Source: Elusimicrobia bacterium GWA2_56_46 (GTDB lineage: Bacteria; Elusimicrobiota; Elusimicrobia; Elusimicrobiales; UBA9959). From it: a stretch of 64,000 bases of DNA. How positions within the stretch are numbered: position 1 is the first letter of the stretch; the number at the start of each line of letters is the position of its first letter. Below, piece by piece: positions 24,001 through 40,241 of this stretch. Location of the stretch: the NCBI GenBank assembly GCA_001799575.1, contig MGTT01000011.1, forward strand, positions 62,001 to 126,000, in the 5' to 3' direction. Position numbers and translations under genes: made by a program. Below the pieces are notes generated by a model that saw only the letters and a list, made by a program, of their open reading frames with translations, searched no databases and was not told where the DNA came from.

Positions 24001-27000
24001 GTTAGAGAAAGCCGCGTACACTTTCTCCACTCCGGAGCCGGCCACGTCGGCGTCCGCGGGATCGGGGTCTATATCGGCCTTGGGGCCGGAATACTCTGCC
24101 ACGCTCTGATGCTTGCCCGAAGCGGCCGGATAGCCCACCGAGGCCGTGGGAGAGGAAATGTCGTAGCGGAATAGCGCCGCGGTGGCGGAGCCGTCATTCT
24201 GGTTGCCCGCCTGGTCGGAGGCCAACAGCCGCACCTGGTAACGCACGCCGTCCCGGAAGATCGTCCGAGCCGTGAAATAGGAGTCGGAATAAACGTAAGA
24301 CTCCCCTGACAACGTGGCCGGCAGGGCGGCCGCGCTGGAGTAGAACACCAGGCCGTTCCAGTTCTCGCCCGGGTCCACCGTCGCGGTGGCCAGCCGTATC
24401 TGGAAACTCTGGGAAACGCGCACGCCCGGAGACACGTCGTAGGCGGTGCCGGCGATATTCGGCAATTCGCCGGCCCTATGCGCCGTCTTATTAGGCAGCG
24501 TTATCGAAGTGACCGGCGCAGCCCCGTCTACCACGAACACCCTGGAATCATACGGCGTGGTCTCAACGGAGGTTTCCGGCGTGCCGGCGAAGGCTCTCAC
24601 CATGACCTTGAGCTGATTGGCCCCCGCCGGCCAGATCGAAGTGAGCCCGTCTTTCACCCAGGCCGTGGTCTTGACCCCGACCCAGCCGCAGGTGGAGATA
24701 CCGGCGGAATAGTAGTTATCGTACTCGTAGCCCGAAGCCGAGACCGCGCAGACGCCGGTCAGATACGCGGCTGTGGAAACCCAGTTGTTACCCGCGCCCG
24801 TCCAGACTTCATCCGGATTGGCCGTGACGTTGATGATCCGCATCTGCGCGGTGCTGGCGTCGGACAGCGTGCCGACTATCTGCGTGAGCTCGGACGGCTT
24901 GGAATGGGAGTTCGCCGCCGGCGCCGTGACGGCCGATTCCGGAACCGGAGCGGTTTTCCTGAAGTATACGTGCTGGGTTCCCGAAACGGGGGCGGAAGGG
25001 AACGGGGTCTCCTGGCCGGCCTTGTCGAACGTCCTGGCGTATATGTGGTATTTGCAACCCGCCTTCAAAACGCCGTTGGCGGGGATGGAGCCCCCGGACA
25101 CCGTCCAATTGGAGCCGTCAAACGACGTGGAGGCGCCCCAGGCCGCCGGGGAAACATTATCCGGCGCGTATCCGCCCGGAGCTATATCGAACGCGCCGCT
25201 GACTATGTTCCAGTAGGAATTGGCCCCGCCGCAGCCGGCGTAATCCTCTTCGTAAAACGCAGCGCGCAAAGCCGCCGTGCTGTTCTCCAGTATCCCGGAG
25301 CCGCTCAAGCCGGTCCAACTGTCCGCCGCCGTACCGGTAATCGCCGCCGGAAAGCCCGCCAGATCGCCGCCGCTGGCCGCCGGAGCGGTTATGTATGTTT
25401 TTGGCGTGGATCTATCCACCCACAAGTTTTTTTCGTTGAGCCCGGCGGTGAAAGACGTTTCCTTATTGCGGCTGGTGAACGTGGTGGCGCCCGAGGCGTC
25501 CGCCGAATTATCCAGAGCGCAGACCCTCACCTGATAGCCCTGGCCGTCGGTCATGGCGGCCCAGAGCGTGCCGGCGCCGGCCTGGGCCTGAAGCGTCCAG
25601 CTGCTGGCCGAGATGGTCATTTCCTGCCAGCTAGAAGCCGACGTTCCGCAGACCGAGCCGCCGTCCTGGTAGCAGAGCTTGTCGAAAGCCGTCCCGCCCC
25701 AGCACTTATTGGCGTCGCCGTCGTTGGTGTAACGTATCTCGGCGTAAGCCCTGAAAATAGTGTTGCCGGCGGCCGGGCCAGTCGCCGGACGGTCGCTGGC
25801 CGTGCCCAGCAGATATTGCAGGTCGTAGCCGGAGACGGCGCTGTACCACTGGCCGTGCGCCGGAGCGATCACCGAAGAGGTCGGCGAGACGATATCGTAG
25901 TAGAAATTCCTGTCCACTACGGTATAAGAGGACTCTATATTCCTGTAACTCCCGTCCGGCTGCTCCACCTTGTCCTGAGCCCAGGCGTAAACCTTGAACG
26001 CCTCGCTGCTGCCGGTTATGCCGCCCCAGAACAACCCGAAGTTGGCGTGGCTCCAGGCGGTCGCCTCTCCGGGGCTGCCCTGGGTGACGGCCTGCGCGGG
26101 GTCGCCGCGGCCGGCCTGCCAGCCCGAGCCGCCGTTATACCAGTAGCCGTCGCTCAGCCGCTGTACGCCTATATTCATGAGGTCAATGCCGCTCTGGCGG
26201 CTGGTCAAAGGCTTGTCCTGCACCACGCCGCTGACTGTCGGTTGGCCGCTGAAAAACGTGTTTTCCGTCGGGAACGTAACAGTGGCTTCCGGATCGGAGG
26301 CGTCATACTTGAACGTGATAGTGGAATAAGCGGCGGAATAATTGCCCGCATTGTCCATGACCCTGACTATCAGCGCATACTCCTCCCCGTCCACCCATTT
26401 GGCCGCTTTGGTCACGTCGGAAGCGTGCCAGATCTGGTAGGGGATCGTCGTGGTGCTTTCCGCCGCGTTCCAGATAGCCGCGGTCTGATCGCACCAATCA
26501 TTCGGCCCTTTAGCGCCTCCCGCGCAGGTGCCGGTGACGCCCTTGGTCCACTTGGTAAGGCCCCCGCTGCCGGGATACTCAAGCCGGTATTCCACCTTAT
26601 TGACCCCGCTGGTGGAATCGGAGGCGTTGCCGTTGGGATCGTCCAACCCGTTCAATCCGTAAGCTCCGCCGTTCACCGCCGGAGAGCTTACGGAGATTGT
26701 GGGCTTGTCGGCGTCGAACTTGAAAAAGCGGGTATAAAGCGGGGTGGCGGCCGTGCCGGTGGAATTGCCGGCGCCGTCCAGGCCGTAGACCTCCAGCCGG
26801 TATTCCCGGCCGTTCTGCCAACCGCAGGCGGGTCCGCCGTAGGGCCCGCACGCCCCGCCAACCGGAACGGCGCTGAAACCGCAGCTCCATGTCCCGCCGG
26901 CGCCGTTCAGCGTGCAGTTGGCCTGTCCACCGCTCTTTTTAGCCTCGAACCAGGCGTTATCCGGCTGGATATTGGTGAAGCTCAGCGTCCCGGTATCCAG

Positions 27001-30000
27001 GTAAAGCGTGGTGGCCGTGACGTCGAAAATCCTGAGCCTCACGTTCGGATTCTGCAACGCCTCCACCACGGGAACATTGTCCGAGATCGTCCCGCCCATG
27101 GAAGAAGCCGCGTTCTTCCAACTGACGGCGCAGCCCGCGCCAGCGGTGCACGTGGAGACGTTCGCCCACTGCGACTCCAGGGTGACGGTCGGCACCGTAA
27201 TATCATAATAGAAAACCGTTTCGGTCGGAGACGCCGCGCCATTCGGAGCGTAGCCGAGCTGGCTCAACCGATCCAATGCCTTCGCGCGCAACTTGTATTT
27301 CCATCCGTCCACCCAGGCCGGCCGGCGCAGATCCCCCGATGCCGCAGTAATGTTCACGCTGTTGGCGGCGGTGGGCGGCGCGAACTGCATCTGGGGACTG
27401 GCCGCGGTGGAAAGCCAGGTTTCATTAACCGTCCAGGAGGAACCCGTCCAGTAACGAGCCGTATCCGTATCCGCCTGGAGCGAAAAATCCACCCTGCCCA
27501 CGCCCGAGATATCGCTGAAAGACATGGCTATATCGCTGGGCGAGGCTATGATTTGTCCGCCGGGAGGGGAAGTGATGTTAATGACGGGACGCTTGCGATC
27601 CATAGTAAGCGTAACCACGCCGGCGCCCGAAGCGAGGCCCCGGCCTTCGTCCGATGTCCTGCCGCGCGTCTCTATACGGTACTGCTTGCCCTCCTCATCA
27701 GCCGCCTGGAAGAGATTCATGTCCAGCGTGGAATAACCCCAGGGCGTGGCGGCCGTCGCGGACTGCCATTCATCTTCAGGCGTAGAAAAACTGCCTGCGG
27801 AAGCGAAGGCGCTCCCGTTCCAGAGATAACTGTCGCTCAACCTGACAATACGCACATTGGAAGTGTTCTGCGAAATCCCCGCAATTGAATCCGCCAAACC
27901 GTCACCTGTGCCGTCATAACCCGCCGTACCGGCGATTGTAACGAATCCGGTTGTATAGCCTCCCAAAAGACCATTGGCCTCAACCGGATATGTAACCGCA
28001 GATATCGGACTTGTGACGGTGAAAGTTGACGGCTCCGAAACAGTCAAGCCGTCCGGATTCCTGATTGTAAGCGCATATGTCCCCGCGACGGTATTCGTAG
28101 AGATTTTGAGCTTAACTATAAATGAAGAATTGGTGACACTGGTTATAGAATTTACCGACACGCCTGCCGTGACCGAGACAGTCGGGAGGCCGGTTGACCC
28201 CCAATTTTCAAAATTTCCGCCGTTGATCGCTATATCCCTGGTGATAGATGACGTCCCAGTGTTGTCCGGAAAAATACCGCCGGAAAGGCGCGCACCGTTA
28301 TCCTCATCCACGAAAGAGGTGGTAGAGGGATTTGGTATCTTAAAAACACGCTCACCGGACGCTCCCGTAGTTCCACCGTCCGGGTTCACGATGCGTATAT
28401 CATAGGGAGTCGCTGACAAGGCAACCGTAGTAGATATTTTTACCGTCAGCCTTATCTCCGTGCCAGAAGTAAACGTCAGGGTACTGACAACAATGGCTGA
28501 TTGAGCCGCCCCGCCAGAAAGTATAGATGCTAATGGATCTTTGCCGCCATATTGTCTAAAAGGATTAGAGGGGGAGGCGGTAATAACGTAGTCATACACG
28601 TTCGAATTCAACCAGGCATTCACAGGAGACGTGGCAACTGAAACTATTGCGGGTACGGCCCAACCGGAAGTGACGCTCTTGTCAAAATATACTCCGTCGC
28701 TCTGCTGCCAAACGAAGGGTATGGCATCCGGCCTGGTCACTGAATAGGCTATGGATGGATGCGCCGGAGTGGCTGAAGCCTCCGCCCATTCAGTTTGTTC
28801 CACCCAATCGGTTCCGAGCGTTGTTGCGGTAGAGTAACAGGTAAGGCTCTGGAGATCGGAGGTGGATGAAACAAAAATCATGTACAGTGTATCAGAATTG
28901 AATCCATTGGCTGGATCGGCTTTGGCGATGCCCAGCGAAACATTTTTAAACACCTGCCCGCCCACCGCATTATCTCCTCTTAAGTTTGCATCGCCATAAC
29001 TTATGTCCCATGCGGTATTCCACGTTCCATCGTTATTGATGCGTCCATACCATATATCCTCCTGGCAGTCTACCCAGACCGCGTGGAGATTCCCTGCGGA
29101 GTCCGTAAGCATGGACACATTGTTGTCAAAGCCGGTTTGGTCGCAACTTAACCCGGTGAAAGTCGGGTTACCCGTGCCGGCATCCGCGTACGAATCCTCA
29201 TTTTGGTGGATTCTGGGAGTAACTGCTGCCACATTAGCGATATCCAAAGATGCGGCGATAACTCTCTGCGCCGCGACCGGATGTGGGAGCAGAACCGGAT
29301 AAGCCAGAGAATCGTTATCGGTGCCAGCTTCGCTGCAGTCAGCGTCACCATCATCAAATCGCCAGGTGCCCGCAGGATCGGTCAGATTATCGTCATATAC
29401 GATATAGCCGTCAAGCATATCCACACCCGGCAAGGCGCCGTTATCTGTCAGCAAACCGCTTATCCAGACTTTATTCGTAGAATCCGTGGGATGAACCATA
29501 AGTCCGACCGGCCAGTTCTGACCAACGAATCCGCCGGAGCCTAACGTAGCGCGCAAGCAACCTGTAACACTCGGGGTGATATTAGAGGTTTTCTGATTAC
29601 TTACCATTTGAATACCGGTTGAACTCACATTAAAACGCCTGATGAATATTTCCGGATAATAGCCAGCCGGCCTATCGGGCGCTCTAGAGGTAGAAACCGC
29701 CGCGATAACCTTTGTCGATATCCCCCCCTCGTACCAAATGTTGGGCTTTATGCCTACATCGGTATCGTACGCACCTCCAAGCCCACGAAAAAGATTCGTA
29801 GACGTCCACGGCCCCTCTCCCGTATACGACCAATAGGCCACGGTACTATCACTTCCTGTACCTACAACTATCACATAGCCGTTAGGAGTGGCTATCACTT
29901 TTCTCTGGTTAGAATTCTGTGTATTGCCAACACTGTCCACTACAACAGCAGCATACACTGTCAAACTCCCGGAGCAGAACAAGGCCAATAGCATAAGGAC

Positions 30001-30188: not shown

Positions 30189-30211
30189 AAAAAGGTAGCG
30201 TCTACCTTTTT
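30189..30211. repeat. Short palindrome between HEAT gene and giant gene
   Basis: Perfect 10-bp arms (AAAAAGGTAG / CTACCTTTTT) around a CGT loop. The element begins at the stop codon of the HEAT gene and sits 18 bp upstream of the giant gene's ATG. The same core is found at 31177-31203. It could form a hairpin with a U-run in either direction and act as a weak terminator. It belongs to the palindrome family scattered over 30-40 kb. Confidence 0.7.
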
Positions 30212-31317
30212 TACCTTCCGCTCTTGTCCAGGGCGGACTCCAAGATCCTGCGCACCACCGGGTTAGGCTCGACTCTCAGGGCTTCCTGCACAGCTCCGGT
30301 TGTGGAGGCATCGCCCGATTCCGCCAGGGCTTCAGCGATTTCCCGGCGTATGCCGGCTTCGGAGTGGGAGAGAAGCCCCAGGCAAACCGGCAAACCGGAT
30401 TTATCATTTAGTTTGAGCAAAGCCCGGCAGGAAACCGCCCTTATCCTGTCATCCGGGGAATCCAGCCCCTTTTTAACCAGAGGCACGGCATCCGCTCCGC
30501 CTATTTCGCCCAAAGCCCGGATAGCCTCTTCTTCAACAAGCAGGGGCTGGTCAATTTTCGCACCGCCGGCTCTTTTGGCCCGCAGATCTTCAAGCTCCGT
30601 CTTGACCGCACCGCCGGCCTCCGGGGAACCGACTTTACCCAGGGAATTAAGGACCTGAGCCTTAAAGTCGGCATTCGCCCCGGCCATCAGGCCCGCCAGA
30701 GGCGCGACCGCCTCTTTAGCCCGCAATATCCCCAAAGCCCTGACGCAATAACCTTTAACCCCGGCGCTTTTATCCTTGAAGCATTGAACCAGAGCCGGGA
30801 CAGCTTTCCGATCCCCGATCTCAGCCAGCGCCAGAGCCGCCTGGCCACGCACACTGGAACTAGTATCGCTCTTAAGCCGACTCGTAAGAGGCACAACAGC
30901 CTTGCCGCTTTTCAATCTGCCCAGGCTCCGGGTCGCGTCACCCCGCACGCCGGGATCGCCGTCGCCCAGCGACTTGATCAACTGCGGCACGGCTTTCTCC
31001 CCCCGTGATCCCACTAATTCCGCCAGCGCCTCCCGCCGCTCCTTAGGAGCGGCGGATAAAATATTCTTCTCCGCGGCGGCGCAAACCCCACCCGCCCCAT
31101 AAACCAACAACACCACATAGGGGACGTTGCTTAAACGCTTAATTGTCGGCCAAAAACCCGCCAGAGCGGACTTTAACGCAAAGGTAGCGTCTACCTTTTG
31201 CGGGTTCCGGGGGGCACCAGCGCAAAAACGGGCAAGAACGGACCTGAATCCGCTTATTTTTCTCGTAATTTGACCGCTATTAAGTATCATAAGCACATTG
31301 ACCGCAAACACCCTCAA
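30211..31317 (-). CDS. Secreted HEAT-repeat (PBS lyase-like) protein
   Basis: This 368-residue ORF consists, from about residue 85 to the end, of helical HEAT or PBS-lyase-like repeats. They show the recurring pattern Asp-x-x-Val-Arg-x-x-Ala-x-x-x-Leu-Gly, for example DPGVRGDATRSLGRL and SSVRGQAALALAEIGD. Such arrays are protein-interaction scaffolds. The hydrophobic stretch VVLLVYGAGGVCAA before Ala-Glu-Lys is a likely signal sequence. The nominal start is TTG at 31317. An ATG at 31290 or a GTG at 31116 is possible, and the upstream leader is repeat-derived and shared with the giant gene, so the start is uncertain. It lies 39 bp upstream of the giant gene on the same strand, so the two may be co-transcribed and the HEAT protein could assist the giant protein (inference). 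Confidence 0.8.
   Translation of the reverse strand: MRVFAVNVLMILNSGQITRKISGFRSVLARFCAGAPRNPQKVDATFALKSALAGFWPTIKRLSNVPYVVLLVYGAGGVCAAAEKNILSAAPKERREALAELVGSRGEKAVPQLIKSLGDGDPGVRGDATRSLGRLKSGKAVVPLTSRLKSDTSSSVRGQAALALAEIGDRKAVPALVQCFKDKSAGVKGYCVRALGILRAKEAVAPLAGLMAGANADFKAQVLNSLGKVGSPEAGGAVKTELEDLRAKRAGGAKIDQPLLVEEEAIRALGEIGGADAVPLVKKGLDSPDDRIRAVSCRALLKLNDKSGLPVCLGLLSHSEAGIRREIAEALAESGDASTTGAVQEALRVEPNPVVRRILESALDKSGR
31177..31203. repeat. Short palindrome inside the HEAT gene leader
   Basis: Arms CGCAAAGGTAG and CTACCTTTTGCG around a CGT loop, with the same core as 30189-30211. It is read through as codons of the HEAT protein's N-terminal leader if the upstream start is used. It would be non-coding if translation begins at the GTG at 31116. 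Confidence 0.65.
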
Positions 31318-31355: not shown

Positions 31356-31376
31356 AAAAGGCGCCTGGCTCCTTTT
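31356..31376. repeat. Short palindrome at the hepT stop codon
   Basis: AAAAGG-CGCC and GGCTCCTTTT arms form an imperfect palindrome that begins at the hepT stop codon. It belongs to the same AAAGG...CCTTT family as the other elements in 30-40 kb. Confidence 0.5.
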
Positions 31377-31719
31377 ACTCGCCATCCAGCGGCAACTTTT
31401 TTATCGCATCCAGTATTCCCGGAAGCTCACTTTTGGCGATATTCCACAAGATGTCGTAGTTGACGCCAAAATAATCGTGAATAAGCTTGTCCCTTGTCCC
31501 CGCCATTTCTTTCCACGGTATTCCGGCATGCTTCGAAGTAAAAGATTTCGGAAGCTTTTTTACCGCTTCGCCGATAATCTCGACATTTCTGACGACCGCG
31601 TCCTGAGTCTTCAGATCCTCAAGAAAAGCCTGATAATCCATACCCCCGATATATTTCTCAATTCTTCCGGCAGCCTCTTTTATGTCCTCCAGCAGCTCCT
31701 CTGCATGCCGTTTAGACAT
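31375..31719 (-). CDS. hepT: HepT-like HEPN RNase toxin (DUF86)
   Basis: This 114-residue all-helical protein has the HepT active-site motif R-x4-H-x-Y (Arg76, His81, Tyr83 in RDKLIHDY). Proteins of this family form the toxin of the HepT/MntA type VII toxin-antitoxin system. The HEPN dimer acts as an RNase and is silenced when MntA adds AMP to the motif tyrosine. Its start overlaps the end of the upstream MNT gene by 8 bp, so the pair is translationally coupled. Length is normal for the family (110-145 residues). Function is assigned by motif and pairing. Confidence 0.88.
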   Translation of the reverse strand: MSKRHAEELLEDIKEAAGRIEKYIGGMDYQAFLEDLKTQDAVVRNVEIIGEAVKKLPKSFTSKHAGIPWKEMAGTRDKLIHDYFGVNYDILWNIAKSELPGILDAIKKLPLDGE

Positions 31720-32011
31720 ATTTCAACCCCTTTCGGATACTATCAGCGGCGGTTTTCGTCCTGATGCCTTTAAGACCGTCCGGAGTAAGCACGTCCACTT
31801 TCCGGCCAAGCAGTTTTTCAAGATATTCGGCCAGGCGCATGAACTTTAAACCTATAGGCCTGTCAAATTCAATGATTAAATCCACATCGCTACTCTTCCC
31901 TGCTGTTCCGGCAGCGAACGAGCCGAAAAGCGCCAGTTTTTTGACCCCAAACTGCTCATGCATATAGGCCCGCTTGCCATTAAGCGCCGCCACTATCGTT
32001 CTCTGTGTCAT
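31712..32011 (-). CDS. mntA: MntA-like minimal nucleotidyltransferase antitoxin
   Basis: This 99-residue protein has the MNT signature G-S-x10-D-x-D (Gly30, Ser31, Asp42, Asp44; GSFAAGTAGKSSDVD). It is the expected antitoxin AMP-transferase of the HepT pair just downstream, which it overlaps by 8 bp. I start it at the ATG at 32011. A longer reading from 32071 would translate the palindromic repeat at 32032-32055. A near-identical copy of its last 154 bp lies at 37913-38066. Confidence 0.87.
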   Translation of the reverse strand: MTQRTIVAALNGKRAYMHEQFGVKKLALFGSFAAGTAGKSSDVDLIIEFDRPIGLKFMRLAEYLEKLLGRKVDVLTPDGLKGIRTKTAADSIRKGLKYV

Positions 32012-32031: not shown

Positions 32032-32055
32032 GCAAAAGGTACCTGTTACCTTTGC
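32032..32055. repeat. Short palindrome upstream of mntA
   Basis: Arms GCAAAAGGTA and TACCTTTGC around a short loop. The 25-bp core is identical to the element at 36439-36463, 4.4 kb away. It lies just upstream of the mntA start and may affect its mRNA structure. A degraded second copy follows at about 32070-32090. Confidence 0.7.
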
Positions 32056-32231
32056 ACCGGTTCGGGGGCAATAGGTAACAGGCGCCTTTCTTCCATCAAA
32101 AAGGCAAAAACCTCTCCATTATTCAGCACTCCTGAATTGTTATATATTTTATTATATAAAGAGCCTGTTACAAAGTTGTTTCTTGCGCCATTTTCCGAAA
32201 CAAATTTCATAACCAGGCCCTCCCTCACCCT

Positions 32232-32254
32232 CAAAAGGTGCCAGGCACCTTTTG
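32232..32254. repeat. 23-bp perfect palindrome
   Basis: CAAAAGGTGCC and GGCACCTTTTG surround a single A, making a perfect palindrome. It lies just after the terminator at 32276-32350 in the non-coding stretch before mntA. It is the cleanest member of the family. Confidence 0.7.
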
Positions 32255-32275
32255 GGGTACCTTTCAGACAGGCAT

Positions 32276-32350
32276 AAAAAAAGACCGTTTTGGATCTCTT
32301 CGTCATGCCCCGGTAACAGGGCCAATAACCCGAAGACAGCCAAAACGGCC
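32276..32350 (-). terminator. Strong intrinsic terminator downstream of the GEMM element
   Basis: On the minus strand an 11-bp stem (GGCCGTTTTGG with CCAAAACGGTC, one G-U pair) continues through a second partly paired helix (TCTTCG with CGAAGA). It closes with an inner GCCC/GGGC hairpin and is followed by seven T. No ORF with clear coding support lies between the promoter at 32766-32793 and this terminator, so it ends a short non-coding transcript. It could also be the switch element of the riboswitch. Confidence 0.8.
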
Positions 32351-32456
32351 TAGATCGATATAAGATTCCGGATCCCGGATCCAAGATTCCGGATTGGGAA
32401 CGGCAAACGGCTCCAATCCTGAATCTTAAATCTTCAATCTTGAATCCCTGTTGTCT

Positions 32457-32540
32457 TCGGCAACCTGACCCCCGCGTCACTTAGCGGGTCTCTGGCTTTG
32501 CGCCGCCGGCTTTCGCCGACTTTGCTATTATCGTGACCGA
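32457..32540 (-). promoter_or_regulatory. GEMM-I riboswitch fold, candidate cGAMP-type (A20)
   Basis: Minus-strand sequence matches the cyclic di-GMP-I (GEMM) aptamer. It has GGTCACG at the 5' side, AGCAAA, a GAAA tetraloop closing the P2 hairpin (CGGC-GAAA-GCCG), the hallmark GCGCAAAGCC, a P3 helix with GCTAAG, and GGTTGCCGA closing P1. Aligned to the Vibrio Vc2 aptamer, the base at position 20 is A (plus-strand T at 32526) instead of G. A at this position is known from GEMM-Ib riboswitches of Geobacter that prefer 3',3'-cGAMP. Ligand specificity here is inference. The fold call rests on conserved core bases and pairing. Confidence 0.75.
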
Positions 32541-32765
32541 ACTTAAACTGCCCCGTTAGAGTCGCACCGGCTGCTGCCACCGTCTCCACTTCCACCGTAC
32601 CGCTCCTGGTGTCTACCGCACTTCCAGCTCGCTGACCGCACCCGACGCTTCACCCGACTGCTACCGCGCCTCTAACGGGGCACCACTCCACTCCGACACC
32701 GCTCTCTCGAACGAACGCCCGCACCACCAAAGCACAAACCTCGGCAAATCTCCGCTTCCAACTAT

Positions 32766-32793
32766 ATTATAGCAGATACCCCGGCTTTGTCAA
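32766..32793 (-). promoter_or_regulatory. Near-consensus sigma-70 promoter of the GEMM transcript
   Basis: TTGACA (32788-32793) and TATAAT (32766-32771) on the minus strand are separated by 16 bp. The perfect palindrome TTGACATGTCAA lies 10 bp further upstream at 32804-32815 and could be an operator. The promoter sits in the gap after the fn3-protein gene and points at the riboswitch. Confidence 0.8.
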
Positions 32794-32836
32794 GACCCAA
32801 TTCTTGACATGTCAATGGCTGGATATGCAGATCCGG

Positions 32837-34198
32837 CTACCACCACTTGCCCTGCTTTAGCAGCATCACGGAATCGGCGGCGCTGAAAGGCAGGCCGCCG
32901 TAGAAAGTTCCCTGAAAAGTGACCCGAGACCATTTTCCCGCAGGCAGCTCCCTCTCAAGGGCCTTGCGGTCGAATTCGAGCGTAATGGTTTTTCGCCTGT
33001 ACTTTTCCTCTTTTTTTAAATCTTTCCCTTTACCTTGGCCGCGAGCCTCGTCTTTATCATCGTCGCCGTCACAGTTTTCCTCTTCCCTGTGGGGATTAAT
33101 GATCGCGGGGATCGGCGTTATTAATTGCCGGCCATCCACTTTCACGATCTTCACACTCAGCGGATCGATATCCGAGGCGGTTTTCCAACCGGAAACACGG
33201 AATCTGGCCAACACATATCTGCCATTACCCTTATCATTCAACATCTTCGGCTCAAGGTTCACGGACACCGTGGGCGCGGGGCGCTTCGCGAACAATCCAT
33301 ACAGCGAAAGGCTGCTAAGCCGCCCGGTTATAAAATTACCGTCATAATCAGCCGTCTGATCTGCGACATCGGCCCATTCGGTTCCGTTAAACCGCATCAG
33401 CTTTAGGTCGGTTTCATTGATTGGGCCTGCAAGCTCAGTAGAATCCACTATGCCGTTGTTGTTTGAATCCAGCCACCTCAGGGTCAGCACGGCTGGGGGG
33501 TCAAAAGTGGTTCCTTCCGGGCCCAGTTCGTAGATATTGGTTATAAGAACCAGGCCCTGCTCAGCAACCGAAGCCAGCGCGACTAAATATTCCTGGCTTG
33601 TGGTTGAGGCTAAAGCGGCAAAAACAGGCTTCTCCGCTGAAAATTCAAGCTCCGCCAGCCCGTTTACCACCACTGTACTGCGCGAGAGCCCCGCCACATT
33701 GCTCAGATCGGAAACATTCCCCGCCGAATCCATACTTTTCAAAGCAACGAAGAAAGAAGTCCAGTCCGCCGCAATTTCAATATCCATGGTTTGAGTAGTC
33801 CCCGGAGCAAGCGGAGCCGGCGGCGTGCTAACAATTATCGCCGAATTAAAATTTGAGGCATCAATCATCGTTGAGGCATATCTGATGTCATACAAACTGA
33901 CCGTACTCCCGACATCCAAAGGCGCGGACCATGACAACGTCACCGACGACGGATAAACCATGTCAATCCCCAAATCCGCCACCGCCGCAGGAGGGTTGTA
34001 ATCCGGGGCAAAGCTTATTTGCAATACGGCTGAAGCCACCCCAACAACATAGTCAGGCTGAAAGGTGATAAGAACCTGGGCCTGCGCGGGCGCGGACGCC
34101 TGATAATCAGGCATAAAGCTTATGATAGAACTCGCGGAAGTCTGCCCCAAAACGCTTGAGGGCAGTAAAATCGCGATCACTAAGACGATTAGTTTCAC
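32837..34198 (-). CDS. Secreted fibronectin-type protein with three N-terminal PDY repeats
   Basis: This 453-residue protein starts at a GTG that overlaps the upstream stop codon (TAGTG). A signal peptide of about 18 residues ends at LG-QT. Three short repeats follow (SFMPDYQAS, TFQPDYVVG, SFAPDYNPP, about residues 27-69), then a fibronectin type III-like domain (about 70-170) with the usual Trp-Ser-Ala-Pro strand. Around residue 248 a DSNNNGIVDSTEL segment resembles a calcium-binding EF-hand/dockerin loop. The C-terminal part has a charged, low-complexity linker (Glu/Asp/Lys-rich) before a last beta-rich region. It is the last gene of a three-gene secreted operon. Function is unknown; an extracellular or cell-wall role is inferred. 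Confidence 0.8.
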   Translation of the reverse strand: MKLIVLVIAILLPSSVLGQTSASSIISFMPDYQASAPAQAQVLITFQPDYVVGVASAVLQISFAPDYNPPAAVADLGIDMVYPSSVTLSWSAPLDVGSTVSLYDIRYASTMIDASNFNSAIIVSTPPAPLAPGTTQTMDIEIAADWTSFFVALKSMDSAGNVSDLSNVAGLSRSTVVVNGLAELEFSAEKPVFAALASTTSQEYLVALASVAEQGLVLITNIYELGPEGTTFDPPAVLTLRWLDSNNNGIVDSTELAGPINETDLKLMRFNGTEWADVADQTADYDGNFITGRLSSLSLYGLFAKRPAPTVSVNLEPKMLNDKGNGRYVLARFRVSGWKTASDIDPLSVKIVKVDGRQLITPIPAIINPHREEENCDGDDDKDEARGQGKGKDLKKEEKYRRKTITLEFDRKALERELPAGKWSRVTFQGTFYGGLPFSAADSVMLLKQGKWW

Positions 34199-35010
34199 TA
34201 ACTCTTCCCCTTCAGCCGGAGAATGCGCGCAAATTCATATCCAGAAGTCCCCTCGGGCACAGCGGCTATCAGAACTTCCTGCCCCGGAAGCACGCTTTCG
34301 CTTTTGGAAACCTTTATACCGGCTATTTGACCATTTGAAAGTTCAATTTTAAACCTGTTTGTTGCAACTTTTTTCCCAATTTCCATACTGATCTCAAACC
34401 CCGGACCCTCTTTCAGCCATTCATATCCCGGTGATTGCACAAAAAGACTTGAACCGCTCCTTTGCGGCGGATAGATCAAAAAAACATTGAAAGTTCTGGA
34501 TGAACCGGTATTGTTATAGATGAAAATTTCTTTTTTTGTTACATCATTTACATCAAACGCGCTAGGCATAAAGCCAAAACCTTTTTCAAGATTTTCCGTT
34601 GAATCAAAAACTTTACTTTCCGTCTCTATCCAAACCGGTACAGCAATCTCCGTAGCAATAGGCCCCTCCGCCCGCGCGGTCAGCGTTGCTTCAAAATGCC
34701 GGTTATAATATTTTTGCTCTTCAGGGATGCGCACAATATTCTTATTTTTTGAACCGGCAAACAAATTTTCCGGAAATTTGGAATACCCCTTTCGCATATT
34801 GTCTTTTAAACTAAAAAAACAGGAAACCTTTTTCTCCGGCTTTATGCACATATCGGGAAGATCAATGTTAATTTCTCTCCCCACGGGAACGTTGACTACC
34901 ACTATTTTATCCTTGTTTAGAACCAACCCGCTTGAAACAGGCCCTGCGGCTCCGATTAAAGCCGGGATCAAAGCAAAAGCCATAATACTTCCCAAAAGTT
35001 TTCTACTCAT
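34198..35010 (-). CDS. Secreted protein of unknown function
   Basis: This 270-residue protein has a signal peptide (hydrophobic residues 7-21, possible cleavage after IGAAG). The rest is predicted beta-rich with no motif I recognise; it contains two Cys near residues 55 and 64. Its stop codon overlaps the next gene's start by one base, and it begins 2 bp after the preceding propeller gene. The three are therefore almost certainly one operon. Codon use is more AT-rich than in the pilus region. Confidence 0.75.
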   Translation of the reverse strand: MSRKLLGSIMAFALIPALIGAAGPVSSGLVLNKDKIVVVNVPVGREINIDLPDMCIKPEKKVSCFFSLKDNMRKGYSKFPENLFAGSKNKNIVRIPEEQKYYNRHFEATLTARAEGPIATEIAVPVWIETESKVFDSTENLEKGFGFMPSAFDVNDVTKKEIFIYNNTGSSRTFNVFLIYPPQRSGSSLFVQSPGYEWLKEGPGFEISMEIGKKVATNRFKIELSNGQIAGIKVSKSESVLPGQEVLIAAVPEGTSGYEFARILRLKGKS

Positions 35011-35012
35011 TT

Positions 35013-36353
35013 TTAATACTGAGGAGATAAAATTGAAATTCGCCCATCGTCCTGACTAAAATAAATTTTCCCGGTTGAATCAACAGCCATCCCCCCTGAA
35101 GCGACACCCTCTAATATCGCAAGTGTTTTAAACAGTGTTCCTTCCAACCGTACTAAACGACGCCCCATCTCGGTTGTCCCCACCGCAAGAAGATTCCCAA
35201 AAGGGTCTTTAGCTGTTTGCCCTATATCCGGCCAAGTGTCACTATACAGATTAGAAATCATTCTTTTCAAACTTCCTTCAAGACCAAATTCATAAAGCTC
35301 ACCTTGATTAGTAGTAAGATATACTGATTCATTTGTAACCTGTAGCGTGTTAACACCTTCAAGATTTGGATATCCAAAACTGTTATAGCCTATCGTAGAA
35401 AATGGCGTAGTTAAAGGATCCATTGTAACCTTGAGGCTGGCAGAATGCGCAAAATAAACATACCCGTTTGCCCCAGCACTAAGGTAACCTAACGGATCCT
35501 CGCAAGCATCAACGCTGGTGCACCCAGGAGTATAATAAAGACCCAAAAGATTGCCAGATGGATCTAATTTGCAAACCCTTGTCCGCATAAGAAGTAAAAT
35601 ATTCCCATTTGAATCAATGTCATTCATACTGTTTTCACCAATATTATTTGAAATTTCTCCCTGATAGCAAGCCACAGGAACCAAGGATTCGTGTAAAACC
35701 GTTCCATCCGGAGATATTTTTTTCACAGTAGCTGTAGCATTTCCGTAGGGCTCATACACAAAGAGCAACCATAAATTATTCTGGCTATCTATTCCAATCA
35801 TGGAGACCGCAGAGCTTGTAGCAACCTGCCATTCTCCGGTTATTGTATAGGCAGAAGGCAATAATGGAGCGGGGTCAGCCGTAACTGTAAGCGAGGTTTG
35901 CTGAGGCGCACTCAGATCCGGCGGCTCGACCTGGGTCGGAGACTGGAATTTTAAATCAAATTTATAGTCAGCCGCGGGAGAAAGCGGGACGGGTATTACC
36001 GAATCGGTTGAAGATATCGTGTTCCAGACAGGCTGAACTCCTGCGGCCGCCGTCTGCCCCCATTTAAGGGAGAACTGGTTTAGCCCCGTGCCCGGGGACA
36101 AAGTCCAGTTTTGAGTGTTCGTGGCACGCACTTTCAAGTTGACATTCTGGGTTCCAGTATTGGCGACGCTGAAATAGCCGCCCCCGGCGGGTGTTCCGGA
36201 ATTCCATGAGATGTAACTGCCGCTCCCCCCGGTCCCCGCGTTCCATGAGCCGGGGTTAATGGAAATCCCGACGTCCGCAAAAATCTTTTCCGAGGCCCCT
36301 GTTCCCAGCATAAAAATCCCCGCCGCCAAAATTTTAATAAACCTCTTTCGCAT
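35013..36353 (-). CDS. Secreted beta-propeller-like (NHL/SMP-30 type) protein
   Basis: I start this 446-residue protein at the ATG at 36353, preceded by AAGGAG six bases upstream, rather than at 36443. The longer reading would translate across the palindrome at 36439-36464. A signal peptide (RKRFIKILAAGIFMLGTG) is followed by a Gly/Asn/Ser/Trp-rich beta domain (about residues 30-150). The C-terminal 290 residues have repeating D-x-x-G-N-x/D-S-x-G-x-I-Y blades, for example DSQNNLWLL, DSNGNILLL, DPSGNLLGL and DSTGKIYFS. This is the pattern of NHL/SMP-30-like propellers. It heads the secreted three-gene operon. Ligand unknown. Confidence 0.8.
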   Translation of the reverse strand: MRKRFIKILAAGIFMLGTGASEKIFADVGISINPGSWNAGTGGSGSYISWNSGTPAGGGYFSVANTGTQNVNLKVRATNTQNWTLSPGTGLNQFSLKWGQTAAAGVQPVWNTISSTDSVIPVPLSPAADYKFDLKFQSPTQVEPPDLSAPQQTSLTVTADPAPLLPSAYTITGEWQVATSSAVSMIGIDSQNNLWLLFVYEPYGNATATVKKISPDGTVLHESLVPVACYQGEISNNIGENSMNDIDSNGNILLLMRTRVCKLDPSGNLLGLYYTPGCTSVDACEDPLGYLSAGANGYVYFAHSASLKVTMDPLTTPFSTIGYNSFGYPNLEGVNTLQVTNESVYLTTNQGELYEFGLEGSLKRMISNLYSDTWPDIGQTAKDPFGNLLAVGTTEMGRRLVRLEGTLFKTLAILEGVASGGMAVDSTGKIYFSQDDGRISILSPQY

Positions 36354-36438
36354 ATTCCGCTCCTTTTTCATCACATTGTAAAAGGCACCGTCCACCTTTC
36401 TTCGCTTTGACTGCATATTCTGCCCCAAATCGGCCGGT

Positions 36439-36464
36439 GGCAAAAGGTACCTGTTACCTTTGCC
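36439..36464. repeat. Short palindrome upstream of the propeller operon
   Basis: GGCAAAAGGTA and TACCTTTGCC arms around a short loop. The core matches 32031-32055 over 25 bp without a mismatch. It lies between the small ORF at 36474-36710 and the propeller gene. Confidence 0.7.
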
Positions 36465-36473
36465 AACCTTTTC

Positions 36474-36710
36474 CTAAACCTTTGTTCGTCCTGATACCGG
36501 TATGCAAGGGCCAACTTCAAAACGGTCGCACCAGCGCAAGCGGTGGCGCCCAACTTCTATAGCGTTTATCACGCGGCCCATATCCGCCTTGGAGGCCATT
36601 TTGGCCGGTATGAAGTCGTTGACATGGTGGATGTCTGCCTGGTCTTTTGAAACATCAACAAGCATACGGGGAAATACTCCGGTAAGGTTTGGGGCTTCTC
36701 CGTCTACCAT
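36474..36710 (-). CDS. Small hypothetical ORF
   Basis: This 78-codon frame starts with ATG at 36710 behind a weak AAGAGAG site. The product is soluble and mixed in composition, with four Asp/His/Cys positions but no family motif that I recognise. It lies 18 bp after a truncated 19-codon frame that overlaps the MNT gene. It may be a fragment of a larger lost gene or a filler ORF. Confidence 0.35.
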   Translation of the reverse strand: MVDGEAPNLTGVFPRMLVDVSKDQADIHHVNDFIPAKMASKADMGRVINAIEVGRHRLRWCDRFEVGPCIPVSGRTKV

Positions 36711-36728
36711 AAAAGAAAATCTCTCTTC

Positions 36729-36788
36729 TTACAACACCATCTTCAACAACTCCTCAACCTGGGTGTAAAGCACCTGGACTTCGCTCAC
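36729..36788 (-). pseudogene. 19-codon stub at the end of the MNT gene, possible lost HEPN partner
   Basis: A GTG inside the last codons of the MNT gene opens a frame ending at 36729 (MSEVQVLYTQVEELLKMVL). The overlapping start is typical for the partner of an MNT gene and the sequence is helix-like. The frame stops after 19 codons. It may be the remnant of a deleted HEPN gene, leaving this MNT gene as an orphan. Too short to prove. Confidence 0.35.
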
Positions 36789-37092
36789 ACATCACCTTTC
36801 CCCTATTCATAATTTCCAGAATAAAATCGTCTTCCAGACCCACTCTTTTTTTCAATTCCTCATTGGTAAATACCAACGGCTCTATTGAGACACCTTTTAC
36901 GTCCCTGAGAATTTTCATGACCTCGCAGAACCTGTCCATGCTTTTGCGGTTGTCGTCTTTCACAATAAACAGGTCGAGGTCGCTGTCCTCGGTGGGCGTG
37001 CCATAGGCGTAGGAGCCGAACAGGATGATCTTGTCCGGGTTATACCCGTCAACAATTCTCTTTACGATGCTTTCCAGCAATTCCGGCGACAT
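36754..37092 (-). CDS. Orphan MNT-domain nucleotidyltransferase
   Basis: This 112-residue protein carries the G-S-x10-D-x-D motif (GSYAYGTPTEDSDLD, residues about 26-40) of minimal nucleotidyltransferases, the antitoxin half of MNT/HEPN modules. A good Shine-Dalgarno GAGAGG lies 7 bases before the ATG. No intact HEPN gene follows, only a 19-codon stub. Upstream is a complete MNT/HEPN pair. It may cross-act on that pair or be a relic. Confidence 0.82.
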   Translation of the reverse strand: MSPELLESIVKRIVDGYNPDKIILFGSYAYGTPTEDSDLDLFIVKDDNRKSMDRFCEVMKILRDVKGVSIEPLVFTNEELKKRVGLEDDFILEIMNRGKVMCERSPGALHPG

Positions 37093-37141
37093 TTTCCATC
37101 CTCTCTAAAAGGAGCCTTTTCTCGCTTAAACACTCAGTCTG

Positions 37142-37522
37142 CTAACCCTTCACCGCCAGATATATTTTCGCTGCATTTATAAAATCTTTTGCATTCTGTA
37201 ATGCCTGTTTGGTTTTACTTTCATCTATTTCCGGCAGCGGATCATAGTCGCAATTTTGCCTTAACTCAAAAATGTCGCGCAGCGCCTTCTGGAATTTTTT
37301 ATCAAAAATACCGCTTTTAACAAATTCTCTGCCGAAATTGGAGATAACGCCTTTATGCGAAGAAAAAGACAATTCCCTGGTCAGCAACAACGCTTCCGCG
37401 ACATAAAACATGGCGTAATACGCCCTGGAAACGGCAATCCGGCACAGTTCCTCCTTAATGAGCATTTCTGCGGCTTTTATTTCCTCTTCCGCTTTTTTAA
37501 CCAGACCGGTTATCTCATCCAT
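37142..37522 (-). CDS. HEPN-domain protein (COG1895 type)
   Basis: This 126-residue helical protein belongs to the HEPN family. It has an SRAYYAMFYVAEALL helix typical of COG1895, and the catalytic-type Arg88-x3-Asp92-Tyr93 in the C-terminal helix region (ELRQNCDYDP). It overlaps the upstream MNT gene by 13 bp. By family knowledge it is the toxin or RNase-like half of an MNT/HEPN pair. Confidence 0.85.
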   Translation of the reverse strand: MDEITGLVKKAEEEIKAAEMLIKEELCRIAVSRAYYAMFYVAEALLLTRELSFSSHKGVISNFGREFVKSGIFDKKFQKALRDIFELRQNCDYDPLPEIDESKTKQALQNAKDFINAAKIYLAVKG

Positions 37523-37854
37523 AAATTCACTCCCTCCCTGCGCACATTAAGCAACAGCGGGGTCTGCCTGACACGGTACTCTTCTTTTTTTCTGATGATA
37601 AACGATATCAGAAGAGCATAATCATATTCCTCCTCAACCGCGTAAACCAACTTAAAAACCTTGTCAAACTCCTCGCTCTGGTTATTGTATCCATTCAGTA
37701 TGATCATGACATCAATATCGGAGTCCCGCGTGGCGTCACCACGCGCTTTCGAACCGTAAAGGATAACGCTGTCCAGATTGGCGCCGTAAAGATTCTTTAA
37801 GCCCGATATCAGCTTATTAACCGCCTGTTTTTCTTTCCCCGTAAGATTATCCAT
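37510..37854 (-). CDS. MNT-domain nucleotidyltransferase (partner of downstream HEPN)
   Basis: This 114-residue protein has GSKARGDATRDSDIDV, the G-S-x10-D-x-D catalytic signature, at about residues 34-49. The C-terminal half has the second conserved Asp region (YDYALLISFII). It overlaps the HEPN gene by 13 bp, the usual arrangement in these modules. It is distinct in sequence from the MNT proteins at 31712 and 36754. Confidence 0.85.
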   Translation of the reverse strand: MDNLTGKEKQAVNKLISGLKNLYGANLDSVILYGSKARGDATRDSDIDVMIILNGYNNQSEEFDKVFKLVYAVEEEYDYALLISFIIRKKEEYRVRQTPLLLNVRREGVNLWMR

Positions 37855-37912
37855 AATACGCTGTTCCCTTTAACACCTGTTGTTACAGACAAAAGATAAC
37901 CGCTATCCTTTG

Positions 37913-38066
37913 TATTTCAACCCCTTTCGGATACTATCAGCGGCGGTTTTCGCCCTGATGCCTTTAAGACCGTCCGGAGTAAGCACGTCCACTTTCCGGC
38001 CAAGCAGTTTTTCAAGATATTCGGCCAGGCGCATAAACTTCAAACCTATAGGCCTGTCAAATTCAA
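37913..38066 (-). pseudogene. Truncated duplicate of mntA 3' half
   Basis: These 154 bp match 31719-31872 with only three differences. They correspond to the C-terminal half of MntA plus the first bases of hepT's start region. The copy lacks the catalytic motif and a start codon, and abuts the stop codon of the AbiEii-like gene. It is a recent duplication that lost its 5' half. Confidence 0.9.
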
Positions 38067-38509
38067 CCATTCTCCAGTAAACTCAAGTCCATCTTATCCT
38101 GCGGCCTGTTAAAATGCTTTTTGAGTTTTATCAAATCCTCTTTTGACACCACATTAATGGAAAAATCTTCCAAAGTATCCGTCAATTTCCGTTCCCACGC
38201 TTCCTCAAAACCCAGGATTTCCTGGGAAGTCCATATTTCAATTTTGAACGCCTCGCTTTTAATTTCAATTCTTTGACCCATCTTCAAAATAGCCTCTTCA
38301 GAAACCTCCAGGCCCCCGAACTCCTTCAACGACGCCGCCAACTTAACCGCGTTTTCTTCCGTCTGTCTTATCCAGGTATCCATGTCTTTAGTCGCTCTCG
38401 GTGTTTTTGTGTGGATCATAACGGCATAAGCGCCGATAACGAGATAATCGACCTTGTGTTTATCCAAAAGCCTGAGAAATTTTAAATACTCGTCGGTATA
38501 AGAAGCCAC
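38063..38509 (-). CDS. AbiEii-like / DUF6036-type nucleotidyltransferase
   Basis: I start this 148-residue protein at GTG 38509, with a GAGG Shine-Dalgarno 9 bases before. Upstream codons of the open frame overlap a separate small ORF. It has the motif V-I-G-A-Y-A-V-x7-P-R-A-T-K-D-M-D (residues about 20-40) of nucleotidyltransferases related to AbiEii toxins, with the Asp-x-Asp pair intact. Family members act as the toxin or modifier half of type IV toxin-antitoxin or phage-defence modules. Its 3' end has been joined to the truncated mntA copy, and only the stop codon falls in the junction. Confidence 0.75.
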   Translation of the reverse strand: MASYTDEYLKFLRLLDKHKVDYLVIGAYAVMIHTKTPRATKDMDTWIRQTEENAVKLAASLKEFGGLEVSEEAILKMGQRIEIKSEAFKIEIWTSQEILGFEEAWERKLTDTLEDFSINVVSKEDLIKLKKHFNRPQDKMDLSLLENG

Positions 38510-38511
38510 GT

Positions 38512-38688
38512 TTATTTCCTCGCCATTGTAACGGTGTACGCTGTCTTTACCGTCCTGATATCTTTTTTTAACACCAGCATATGATAATTGAACATTATCT
38601 GTCCCGCCGCCCTGAAAATGCCATTTACGGTTTTTTCCGTTTTGTCCGTCGGTGTATCCTGATTGACGAAGCTGATTTGCATGCTCAT
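38512..38688 (-). CDS. 58-codon ORF upstream of the AbiEii-like gene
   Basis: An ATG at 38688 with GAGAGG 7 bases upstream opens a 58-codon frame ending 2 bp before the GTG of the nucleotidyltransferase. Its 5' flank is nearly the same as that of the MNT gene at 36754-37092 (CTCCTTTTAGAGAGGATG). The product is basic and soluble; I do not recognise it. Its position is where the antitoxin of such modules usually lies. Confidence 0.5.
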   Translation of the reverse strand: MSMQISFVNQDTPTDKTEKTVNGIFRAAGQIMFNYHMLVLKKDIRTVKTAYTVTMARK

Positions 38689-38702
38689 TTTTCATCCTCT
38701 CT

Positions 38703-38720
38703 AAAAGGAGCCAGGCTTTT
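38703..38720. repeat. Short palindrome AAAAGGAGCC...GGCTTTT
   Basis: This is a degraded member of the AAAGG...CCTTT palindrome family. A shorter relative (AAAAGG-AG-CCTTTT) is at 37107-37120. Both are immediately upstream of an AGAGAGG ribosome-binding site of a toxin-antitoxin-type gene. About 100 bp between this element and the STAS gene shows nothing else. Confidence 0.45.
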
Positions 38721-38827
38721 GCTCATACTATAGAGGCGCACAGTTCACGGTTTACACCATTTTATAACCGAGGATATATTACTATTTTACGAGGGCTTTA
38801 TTCGCGGCGGCCGCGCGCCTTCTATAT

Positions 38828-39127
38828 CTATTCCGGGCCGAGGCTTTCCTGCATATAGTCCGTCACTATGCCGATTATTTTTTTTACCGTGGGCGTGCAA
38901 GATCTGAAAGACATCCGGTCCAGCGCTGCGCTTCCGAATTTTCTTATAACATCACTGATCAGGGCATGGACAAAAGATTGCGTGGCGGCTTCAACTTTTT
39001 CGAAATCAAGGACTACGTCTTCGCCGCTGTTAAGCGCGGGGATAATTTCCTTGACCCTGATATCCCTGGCTATATCCTTATTTTCGGCGAACGCGCCCGC
39101 CTTGTTAAAGAGCACGATATTCTTCAT
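38828..39127 (-). CDS. STAS-like (DUF4325) protein
   Basis: This 99-residue protein shows a DUF4325 pattern: beta strand VVLDFEKVEAATQSFVHALISDVIRKFG in the position of the STAS phosphorylatable loop (Ser/Thr near residues 48-50). Such proteins are usually paired with a GHKL ATPase, which is the gene directly upstream here with a 4-bp overlap. It also has a GGAG Shine-Dalgarno. By analogy to anti-anti-sigma systems it may be switched by the partner (inference). Confidence 0.8.
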   Translation of the reverse strand: MKNIVLFNKAGAFAENKDIARDIRVKEIIPALNSGEDVVLDFEKVEAATQSFVHALISDVIRKFGSAALDRMSFRSCTPTVKKIIGIVTDYMQESLGPE

Positions 39128-40086
39128 ATGAACTTAGGTCTCCTGTAGCGGGCCTGAACGCGCTCCCTGACCGCCGCCTTATATGTACCGGCGATCGCGT
39201 CCAGGAGCGCGGAGAACTCCGCGGTCTGGTCCAGTGTAATATCAGCTCCGACCACCGTCCCGCGCCAGGCGGGGAGATTTTCTTCCTGTGAATGCCGGTC
39301 ATCGAATGGATCCGCATGGAGACGCGGCCTCACACCCGCCGGCTTCTTGAGCAGCTTATAAAGAGCGTTCCCGCTATAGATAACAAAAAAATCCCGGTTT
39401 ATGCTGGCTATGGATTTAATAAAAAAGAGGCCCGCTCCGGCGTTCTGTTCCGTGCCCCCTTCCCTGTTGGTTGTTCCGGTTATGCCCGGCCGCAACGCCA
39501 GTCTTATGGCCTCCAGATCGGTGTCGGCCGGATGAGACCGGGTAATAGTTTGTTTTATCCCCACCCCGGTGTCCGCGATACCGACACGAATGGAATTGCT
39601 CTTTTTATAATACTGCGCGCACAAGAAAGCCCCGTGATCCGCCTCCGCGTGCTCGATAACATTCCGGGCCAGCTCGCTTATAATATAACCGATCGTTCTA
39701 GCCTGCTCCGGTTCGAGGTGCAGCAATGGCACCATATCGGCAATAAATCTGGACAATTCATCCGAGCCGCGTATCCGGGTTATCGGGATAAAACGTCCGG
39801 CCGGTTCATGCTCCACAAAAGGGACATTAAAAGGTATTTTAAGGGTTTTAAACAACCCCATACGGGCCAGATAATGGCTTGATCTGGCTTCAAATTTTTG
39901 ACACCGGATATTTGCCGGGTCAACTGTGACGCCCAAAGCGGCGATCATAGCAAGCACAGCGGGATGGATAGAGATCCATTTGTTATTAGCCGTAATTTCC
40001 AAAGATTCGGTTCCGGAGGGATCAAAACTTTTAAGAAAAGGGTCAATGTTCCCCAAAAAGGCGCTATTTGGAATATAAAGTTTCAT
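39124..40086 (-). CDS. GHKL (HATPase_c) ATP-binding protein with N-terminal STAS-like half
   Basis: This 320-residue protein has the GHKL boxes: N box ELARNVIEHA (Asn142), G1 ADTGVGI (Asp172), and G2 NAGAGLFF (about 215-222). The first 100 residues are alpha/beta and resemble a STAS fold. It has no histidine phosphotransfer domain or membrane segment. The ATG lies 5 bases after a TATAAT box, so the mRNA is probably leaderless. It is followed with 4-bp overlap by the DUF4325 gene. Role is inferred as an anti-sigma-like ATPase or kinase controlling its partner; such pairs also occur next to defence genes. Confidence 0.82.
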   Translation of the reverse strand: MKLYIPNSAFLGNIDPFLKSFDPSGTESLEITANNKWISIHPAVLAMIAALGVTVDPANIRCQKFEARSSHYLARMGLFKTLKIPFNVPFVEHEPAGRFIPITRIRGSDELSRFIADMVPLLHLEPEQARTIGYIISELARNVIEHAEADHGAFLCAQYYKKSNSIRVGIADTGVGIKQTITRSHPADTDLEAIRLALRPGITGTTNREGGTEQNAGAGLFFIKSIASINRDFFVIYSGNALYKLLKKPAGVRPRLHADPFDDRHSQEENLPAWRGTVVGADITLDQTAEFSALLDAIAGTYKAAVRERVQARYRRPKFI

Positions 40087-40091
40087 GCCCT

Positions 40092-40121
40092 ATTATACCG
40101 GGAATCCCGGTATATTGTCAA
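40092..40121 (-). promoter_or_regulatory. Consensus promoter giving a leaderless mRNA for the GHKL/STAS operon
   Basis: TTGACA (40116-40121) and TATAAT (40092-40097) on the minus strand are spaced 18 bp. A palindrome ACCGGGAATCCCGGT fills the spacer and touches the -10 box. The -10 box ends 5 bp before the ATG, so transcription should start at or very near the start codon. Confidence 0.8.
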
Positions 40122-40167
40122 TACACCGGGAATCCCGGTATATTGTCAATACACCGGGAATCCCGGT
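40097..40167. repeat. Three 28-bp direct repeats with palindromic operators
   Basis: The palindrome ACCGGGAATCCCGGT occurs at 40097-40111, 40125-40139 and 40153-40167, spaced exactly 28 bp. TATATTGTCAATA lies between copies. The first copy is inside the promoter spacer, so a bound repressor would block RNA polymerase. No obvious DNA-binding regulator is adjacent. Confidence 0.85.
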
Positions 40168-40183
40168 GTTTTATCCTCGTAGT

Positions 40184-40202
40184 AAAGGTAACAGGTGCCT
40201 TT
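40184..40202. repeat. Short palindrome upstream of the operator repeats
   Basis: AAAGGTAACAGGTGCCTTT, an imperfect palindrome of the 30-40 kb family and its rightmost member. It marks the border between the accessory zone and the pilus region. Confidence 0.6.
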
Positions 40203-40241
40203 CCGTTGCGCAAACCGCGGGCGTGCACCTGTTTGCGGGGG

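Follow-up and report, generated by a model that had tools for sequence, protein, structure and literature searches.

A GEMM-I-fold riboswitch unit with a covarying leader hairpin is linked to a giant-gene operon in Elusimicrobiota

A stretch of 64,000 nucleotides (hereafter the window) from the genome of Elusimicrobia bacterium GWA2_56_46 (2.66 Mb in 30 contigs) carries a riboswitch unit that runs on the minus strand from promoter to terminator (32793-32276), and the question it raises is which gene, if any, the unit controls. An earlier note on this DNA took the unit for an orphan, free-standing RNA or for a switch placed before a toxin-antitoxin pair. The parts of the unit that the note described are all in place. 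In particular, the consensus promoter, P1 (TTGACA-16-TATAAT, 32766-32793, minus strand), has 12 of 12 matches and an extended -10 TG, and the expected start near 32759 lies about 215-223 nt from the aptamer, where the note had given some 215 nt. The full GEMM-I core that the note had recognized, and for which it proposed a covariance-model check, matches the c-di-GMP-I family RF01051 over model positions 1-87 of 87 (32456-32536, minus strand) with 53.9 bits against a gathering score of 35 (E = 9.7e-8 for 64 kb against all Rfam families); this is the only Rfam match within the window and supports the proposed cyclic-dinucleotide class of ligand. The stem with one mismatch was found at 32682-32665 with 32566-32549 (18 positions), and the strong terminator (32276-32350, minus strand) comprises a hairpin at 32350-32283 and a T7 tract at 32282-32276, with -37.8 kcal/mol on folding. 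(Note that a simple scan misses the terminator on account of its long loop.) The one long frame within the unit (32046-32480), which spans the aptamer through the terminator, is unconvincing as a gene, as the note had held, and the ATG of mntA lies about 262 nt past the terminator rather than 265 bp. As a whole, the 487-nt unit is more stable when folded than 100 dinucleotide shuffles of it (z = -4.8). Two things escaped the note: a single giant gene, oriented like the unit, takes up the left half of the window, and the 215 nt ahead of the aptamer form a conserved, covarying RNA domain.

Promoter-like sites are more numerous in the region than expected (10 versus 2.7), P1 being the only perfect one, and P1-type promoters also precede the aptamers of relatives, with TG before the -10 element in 70 of 73. 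Ten nucleotides upstream of the -35 element of P1 lies a palindrome with the halves TTGACA and TGTCAA (32804-32815), a candidate operator; its core, TTGAC-NN-GTCAA, occurs 10-14 nt upstream of the -35 element in 61 of the 73 GEMM promoters of the family. Across the whole genome there are three instances of the palindrome followed by TTGACA: before the unit in the window, before a second riboswitch (class A, see below) that heads a motor/PorV-like operon, and just past the giant gene, about 39 bp beyond its stop, where it stands ahead of a frame that has no aptamer (an Rfam search after this third copy gave no match). The presence of the palindrome at these three promoters links unit and giant gene whether or not the two are co-transcribed. 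(The two sites outside the unit are near 17321 at locus L164 and at locus L166.)

At position 20 of such aptamers (numbering transferred from the Vc2 aptamer), G is usual for c-di-GMP specificity. The window aptamer has A at this ligand-contact position, as do 75 of 81 aptamers of the family (f1, loci L001-L157), whereas G was found in 18 of 18 aptamers from other families of the class. A20 has been associated with cGAMP binding in a G20A GEMM-I complex (PMC6274999), in line with the earlier suspicion that cGAMP might be relevant here. The cGAMP (GEMM-Ib) riboswitches of Geobacter likewise have A at position 20, and Geobacter makes cGAMP by Hypr GGDEF enzymes, in which Ser replaces Asp (PMC6456294), whereas no Hypr GGDEF was found among the sampled genomes of the family and its sister family, in which 27 of 27 readable GGDEFs keep Asp. 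Moreover, SMODS-type synthases are sporadic (2 of 13 family genomes searched, the window's own genome included). A20 in combination with Asp-keeping GGDEFs and sporadic SMODS-type synthases leaves the ligand between c-di-GMP and cGAMP, both of which are candidates. The window aptamer shares with RF01051 riboswitches the full-length match, the GAAA tetraloop and the conserved GCCGAA 3' end; it differs from them in having A rather than G at position 20, and we therefore file it, as a reading of its sequence, under the GEMM-I fold with the ligand open rather than as a proven c-di-GMP sensor. The unit also differs from them in its long structured upstream domain and in its presumed control of a giant-gene operon. 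A match to the c-di-GMP-I-GGC variant, RF03167, overlaps the aptamer with 47.4 bits, which in the window is under the gathering score of 59, whereas the aptamer of a related locus (L036) passes the cut-off. Within the family 48 of 59 genomes have RF01051, and within the class 116 of 235; the window genome has two such aptamers. Named records that share the aptamer core are, a few odd names excepted, labelled Elusimicrobia bacterium or Elusimicrobiales.

The 3' tail of the aptamer, CCGAAGACA (32452-32460, minus strand), is complementary over 9 bp to the terminator strand TGTCTTCGG (32338-32330, minus strand), that is, a strand of the terminator can pair with a conserved strand of the aptamer, as is characteristic of transcription attenuators. 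Complementarity of 7-10 bp between tail and arm was found in nearly all of 26 loci. When nascent prefixes of the window unit were folded, the helix between tail and arm had a pairing probability of 0.94-0.99 before the second terminator arm and of 0 once the terminator was complete. In 24 aligned terminators the outer stem varies, whereas the arm TCTTCGG does not, partly by selection, since these were gathered by searching TCT[TC]CGG. The last G of TCTTCGG is unpartnered inside the terminator, and the arm is complementary to the tail CCGAAGA, which we take to include the conserved CC near the ligand-contacting C92 (Vc2 structure numbering). In two loci (L067 and L134) the arm pairs with the 5' strand of the aptamer instead, likewise disrupting the aptamer. 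Pairing of the arm with the aptamer tail or 5' strand argues that ligand binding should favour termination, so the unit is predicted to be an OFF switch; prefix folding in some relatives does not favour the helix between tail and arm, which makes the direction uncertain, and an ON switch is also possible. OFF behaviour would set the unit apart from the cGAMP riboswitches of Geobacter, where loss of the cGAMP synthase lowers gene expression, i.e. ON behaviour (PMC6456294).

A dispersed repeat of the GGATTCAAGATT type is inserted between the aptamer and the terminator (32356-32447, minus strand), where most relatives have a gap of about 60 nt, and stretches similar to it occur elsewhere in the genome (on contigs C19, C1, C17 and others). 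This repeat, lying in the expression platform, may have altered the switching of the window unit. (The repeat forms a hairpin and is found at several places in its own genome and also in relatives.)

The leader domain (32549-32682, minus strand) is a long hairpin, with the one-mismatch stem as its arms, around a G-rich region of spaced YRG triplets. A leader stem of 15-20 bp enclosing about 70-130 nt was found in 29 of 29 loci. When the two arms were aligned, joined by a neutral spacer and with the loop left out, both sides had changed in 10 of 15 pairs while 99.5% of cells were paired (14 distinct stems), and the covariation score was 0.673, versus 0.237 for shuffled alignments and at most 0.284 in slid registers. 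YRG triplets at a spacing of 5-6 nt number 362 over all leaders, compared to 115 +/- 9.5 in shuffles, and 14 in the window leader, compared to 4.2 +/- 1.8. No Rfam family was matched in the leader. The hairpin is an RNA structure that is not in Rfam and that is attached only to the riboswitch copy of the giant gene. In one genus (g4) the leader core, GGTCGCAGACAGACGCGGTGC, is essentially single copy per genome and stands beside the class-B aptamer (see below), with a few three-mismatch matches elsewhere, and we therefore rejected the idea that the leader is a dispersed or mobile element.

Several other explanations of the leader were tried. As in TRAP sites (NAG-N2-3), the triplets end in G and are spaced by 5-6 nt; unlike in TRAP sites, CGG rather than GAG or UAG dominates by eye, and TRAP-like binding was rejected because the TRAP protein (PF02081) was found in 0 of 37 genomes, the Bacillus subtilis control being found. 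Two-tier G-quadruplex motifs are not enriched (37 versus 46 expected), and arrays of RNA polymerase pause sites (43 versus 20 expected) are probably a by-product of the repeats. Tentatively, hairpin and repeats could constitute a new regulatory RNA domain joined to a riboswitch with a cGAMP-type pocket in a lineage without known cGAMP synthases; such a domain might, for example, be the binding site of a repeat-binding protein or prime RNA polymerase for a transcript of 35-53 kb.

Comparison with relatives bears directly on what the unit controls. Class A units have a short leader, with a start codon directly after the aptamer, and precede genes for a PorV-family protein, a FliG-like protein and MotA. 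Class B units, including that in the window, have a leader of 130-310 nt and an aptamer followed by a terminator (B1) or by a short frame and a terminator (B2); three units of one genus combine a class-B terminator with a short leader. The long-leader architecture of the window unit was found at 29 Elusimicrobiota loci, and a giant open frame follows the unit in 23 of the 28 class-B loci with enough flank, often with a HEAT-repeat gene in between; these loci are related, so the counts are non-independent, and most or all of the genomes are metagenome assemblies, many of them incomplete. (Note that automatic clustering of open reading frames linked spurious frames across the aptamer to the HEAT group, and that the 23 of 28 comes from a separate count.) In another genome of the same genus (G002) the unit, the HEAT gene and the giant gene are adjacent, and in two further genomes (G024 and G036) the giant gene is flanked by class B and class A riboswitches. 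(In G024 the second GEMM-I aptamer precedes an operon at C35:269485-277199 (L172) for a FliG_C-like protein, MotA and a PorV-family protein, the last typed in G036; operons of this kind adjoin the giant gene in relatives.)

The corresponding genes in the window are a HEAT-repeat gene (30211-31317, minus strand; PF13646, 1.6e-41; start codon uncertain), which is the first gene of the ancestral operon, and the giant gene (1-30171, minus strand), one open frame encoding 17,603 aa that starts at 30171 and extends beyond the window to contig position 39360 (C11:92171-39360). Complete giant frames in G024 and G036 encode 14,428 and 11,787 aa. (A plus-strand frame at 24478-27888 is an antisense shadow of the giant gene.) We conclude that the unit is probably an intact 5' leader through which an operon for a giant surface protein and a secreted HEAT-repeat protein is controlled, and that it would act as an OFF switch. 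RNA would start at P1, which bears the palindromic operator, and would comprise the long-hairpin leader domain, the GEMM-I aptamer for a cyclic dinucleotide and the terminator. Without ligand, the arm would pair with the tail (or, in some relatives, with the 5' strand of the aptamer) and transcription would read through into the operon; with ligand bound, the tail would be kept in the aptamer and the arm freed, so that the terminator would form.

The unit could instead be a trans-acting regulatory RNA of about 480 nt, made from P1 and ending at the terminator, such as a ligand-gated YRG sponge, the operon being driven by a second promoter-like site, P2 (TTGTAA-16-TAAAAT, 32146-32173, minus strand), with GAAAC/GTAAC repeats. 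Part of the family has a P2-like site in the interval from terminator to operon (the strict pattern fits 8 of the 24 units examined, those of the window and G002 included), so expression of the operon may be independent of P1; the leader is conserved and rich in repeats, and one genome (G031) has the unit some 9 kb away from the giant gene, directly before which stands a different riboswitch. However, a free-standing RNA would have no conserved linked operon, whereas linkage to the giant-gene operon persists at the loci counted above; the switching strands look like those of a cis attenuator, and each genome has essentially one copy, next to the aptamer of that operon. We thus regard a trans-acting RNA as unlikely. 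The earlier description of the unit as an orphan is not supported: in relatives it is the leader of the HEAT/giant-protein operon, free of any intervening toxin-antitoxin pair. (The GTAAC/GAAAC repeats, at 32190-32146 and also in B2 units, are spaced about 11 bp apart before the P2-like promoter, and GTAAC-like motifs also occur in class A leaders.)

That the unit looks orphaned in this genome can be attributed to an inserted gene pair, which encodes a MntA-like nucleotidyltransferase (antitoxin; 31712-32010, minus strand; PF01909, 1.2e-14) and a HepT-like ribonuclease (toxin; 31375-31719, minus strand; PF01934, 9.6e-30). The pair is missing at the corresponding place in G002 and in another relative (G003), and is on this comparison a lineage-specific insertion that separates the unit from the HEAT gene while sharing their orientation; read-through from P1 would have to cross it. 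A further stretch of about 7.4 kb directly upstream of the unit (32816-40242) also appears to be inserted, since the homology of G002, which lacks either insertion, jumps from 40243 in the window to 32815, exactly the edge of the palindrome, with 14 bp between (less simply, the stretch was lost in G002 and G003). Moreover, 154 bp of the mntA region (31719-31872) are 98% identical to 37913-38066, so modules have been copied locally here. (This second copy sits within a cluster of nucleotidyltransferase/HEPN-type genes at 36754-38695. At 40242-41375 there is an S41 peptidase gene with a PDZ domain; in G002 and G024 its relatives are found immediately upstream of the riboswitch unit.)

Three insertions within or next to the unit, together with the leader-stem mismatch, which has no counterpart in G002, might be taken to mean that the flanking insertions and the repeat in the expression platform have made the unit a disabled relic in this genome; this is quite unlikely, as the unit has kept its promoter, operator, aptamer, terminator and switching strands intact. 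Control now mainly of the MntA/HepT pair is very unlikely, for although the two genes are the first downstream and in the same orientation, they are missing from this place in relatives, P2 and its flank intervene between them and the terminator, and toxin-antitoxin pairs usually have their own control.

The reading of the unit as the leader of the giant-gene operon leads to the question of what the giant protein is. It has weak matches to Ig-like domains and, at its C-terminus, a FlgD_ig match and weak similarity to type IX (T9SS) sorting domains; together with the PorV, FliG and MotA neighbours in relatives, these suggest by linkage a secreted surface protein of a motor-linked system. Elusimicrobiota are rich in huge proteins of unknown role (PMC11573180), and we found no paper connecting a riboswitch with such a giant gene. 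The covarying leader domain, present only on the giant-gene copy, is a new RNA structure that needs explanation, and the replacement of G20 by A20 across the family, with no Hypr enzyme found, raises the question of which ligand is really sensed. For the biology of the family, an operator and GEMM-I riboswitches are common to a motor/PorV-like operon and a bacterial gene of very large size, which are neighbours in relatives. This suggests a surface or gliding system that is linked to a motor and controlled by a second messenger, a proposal that can be tested.
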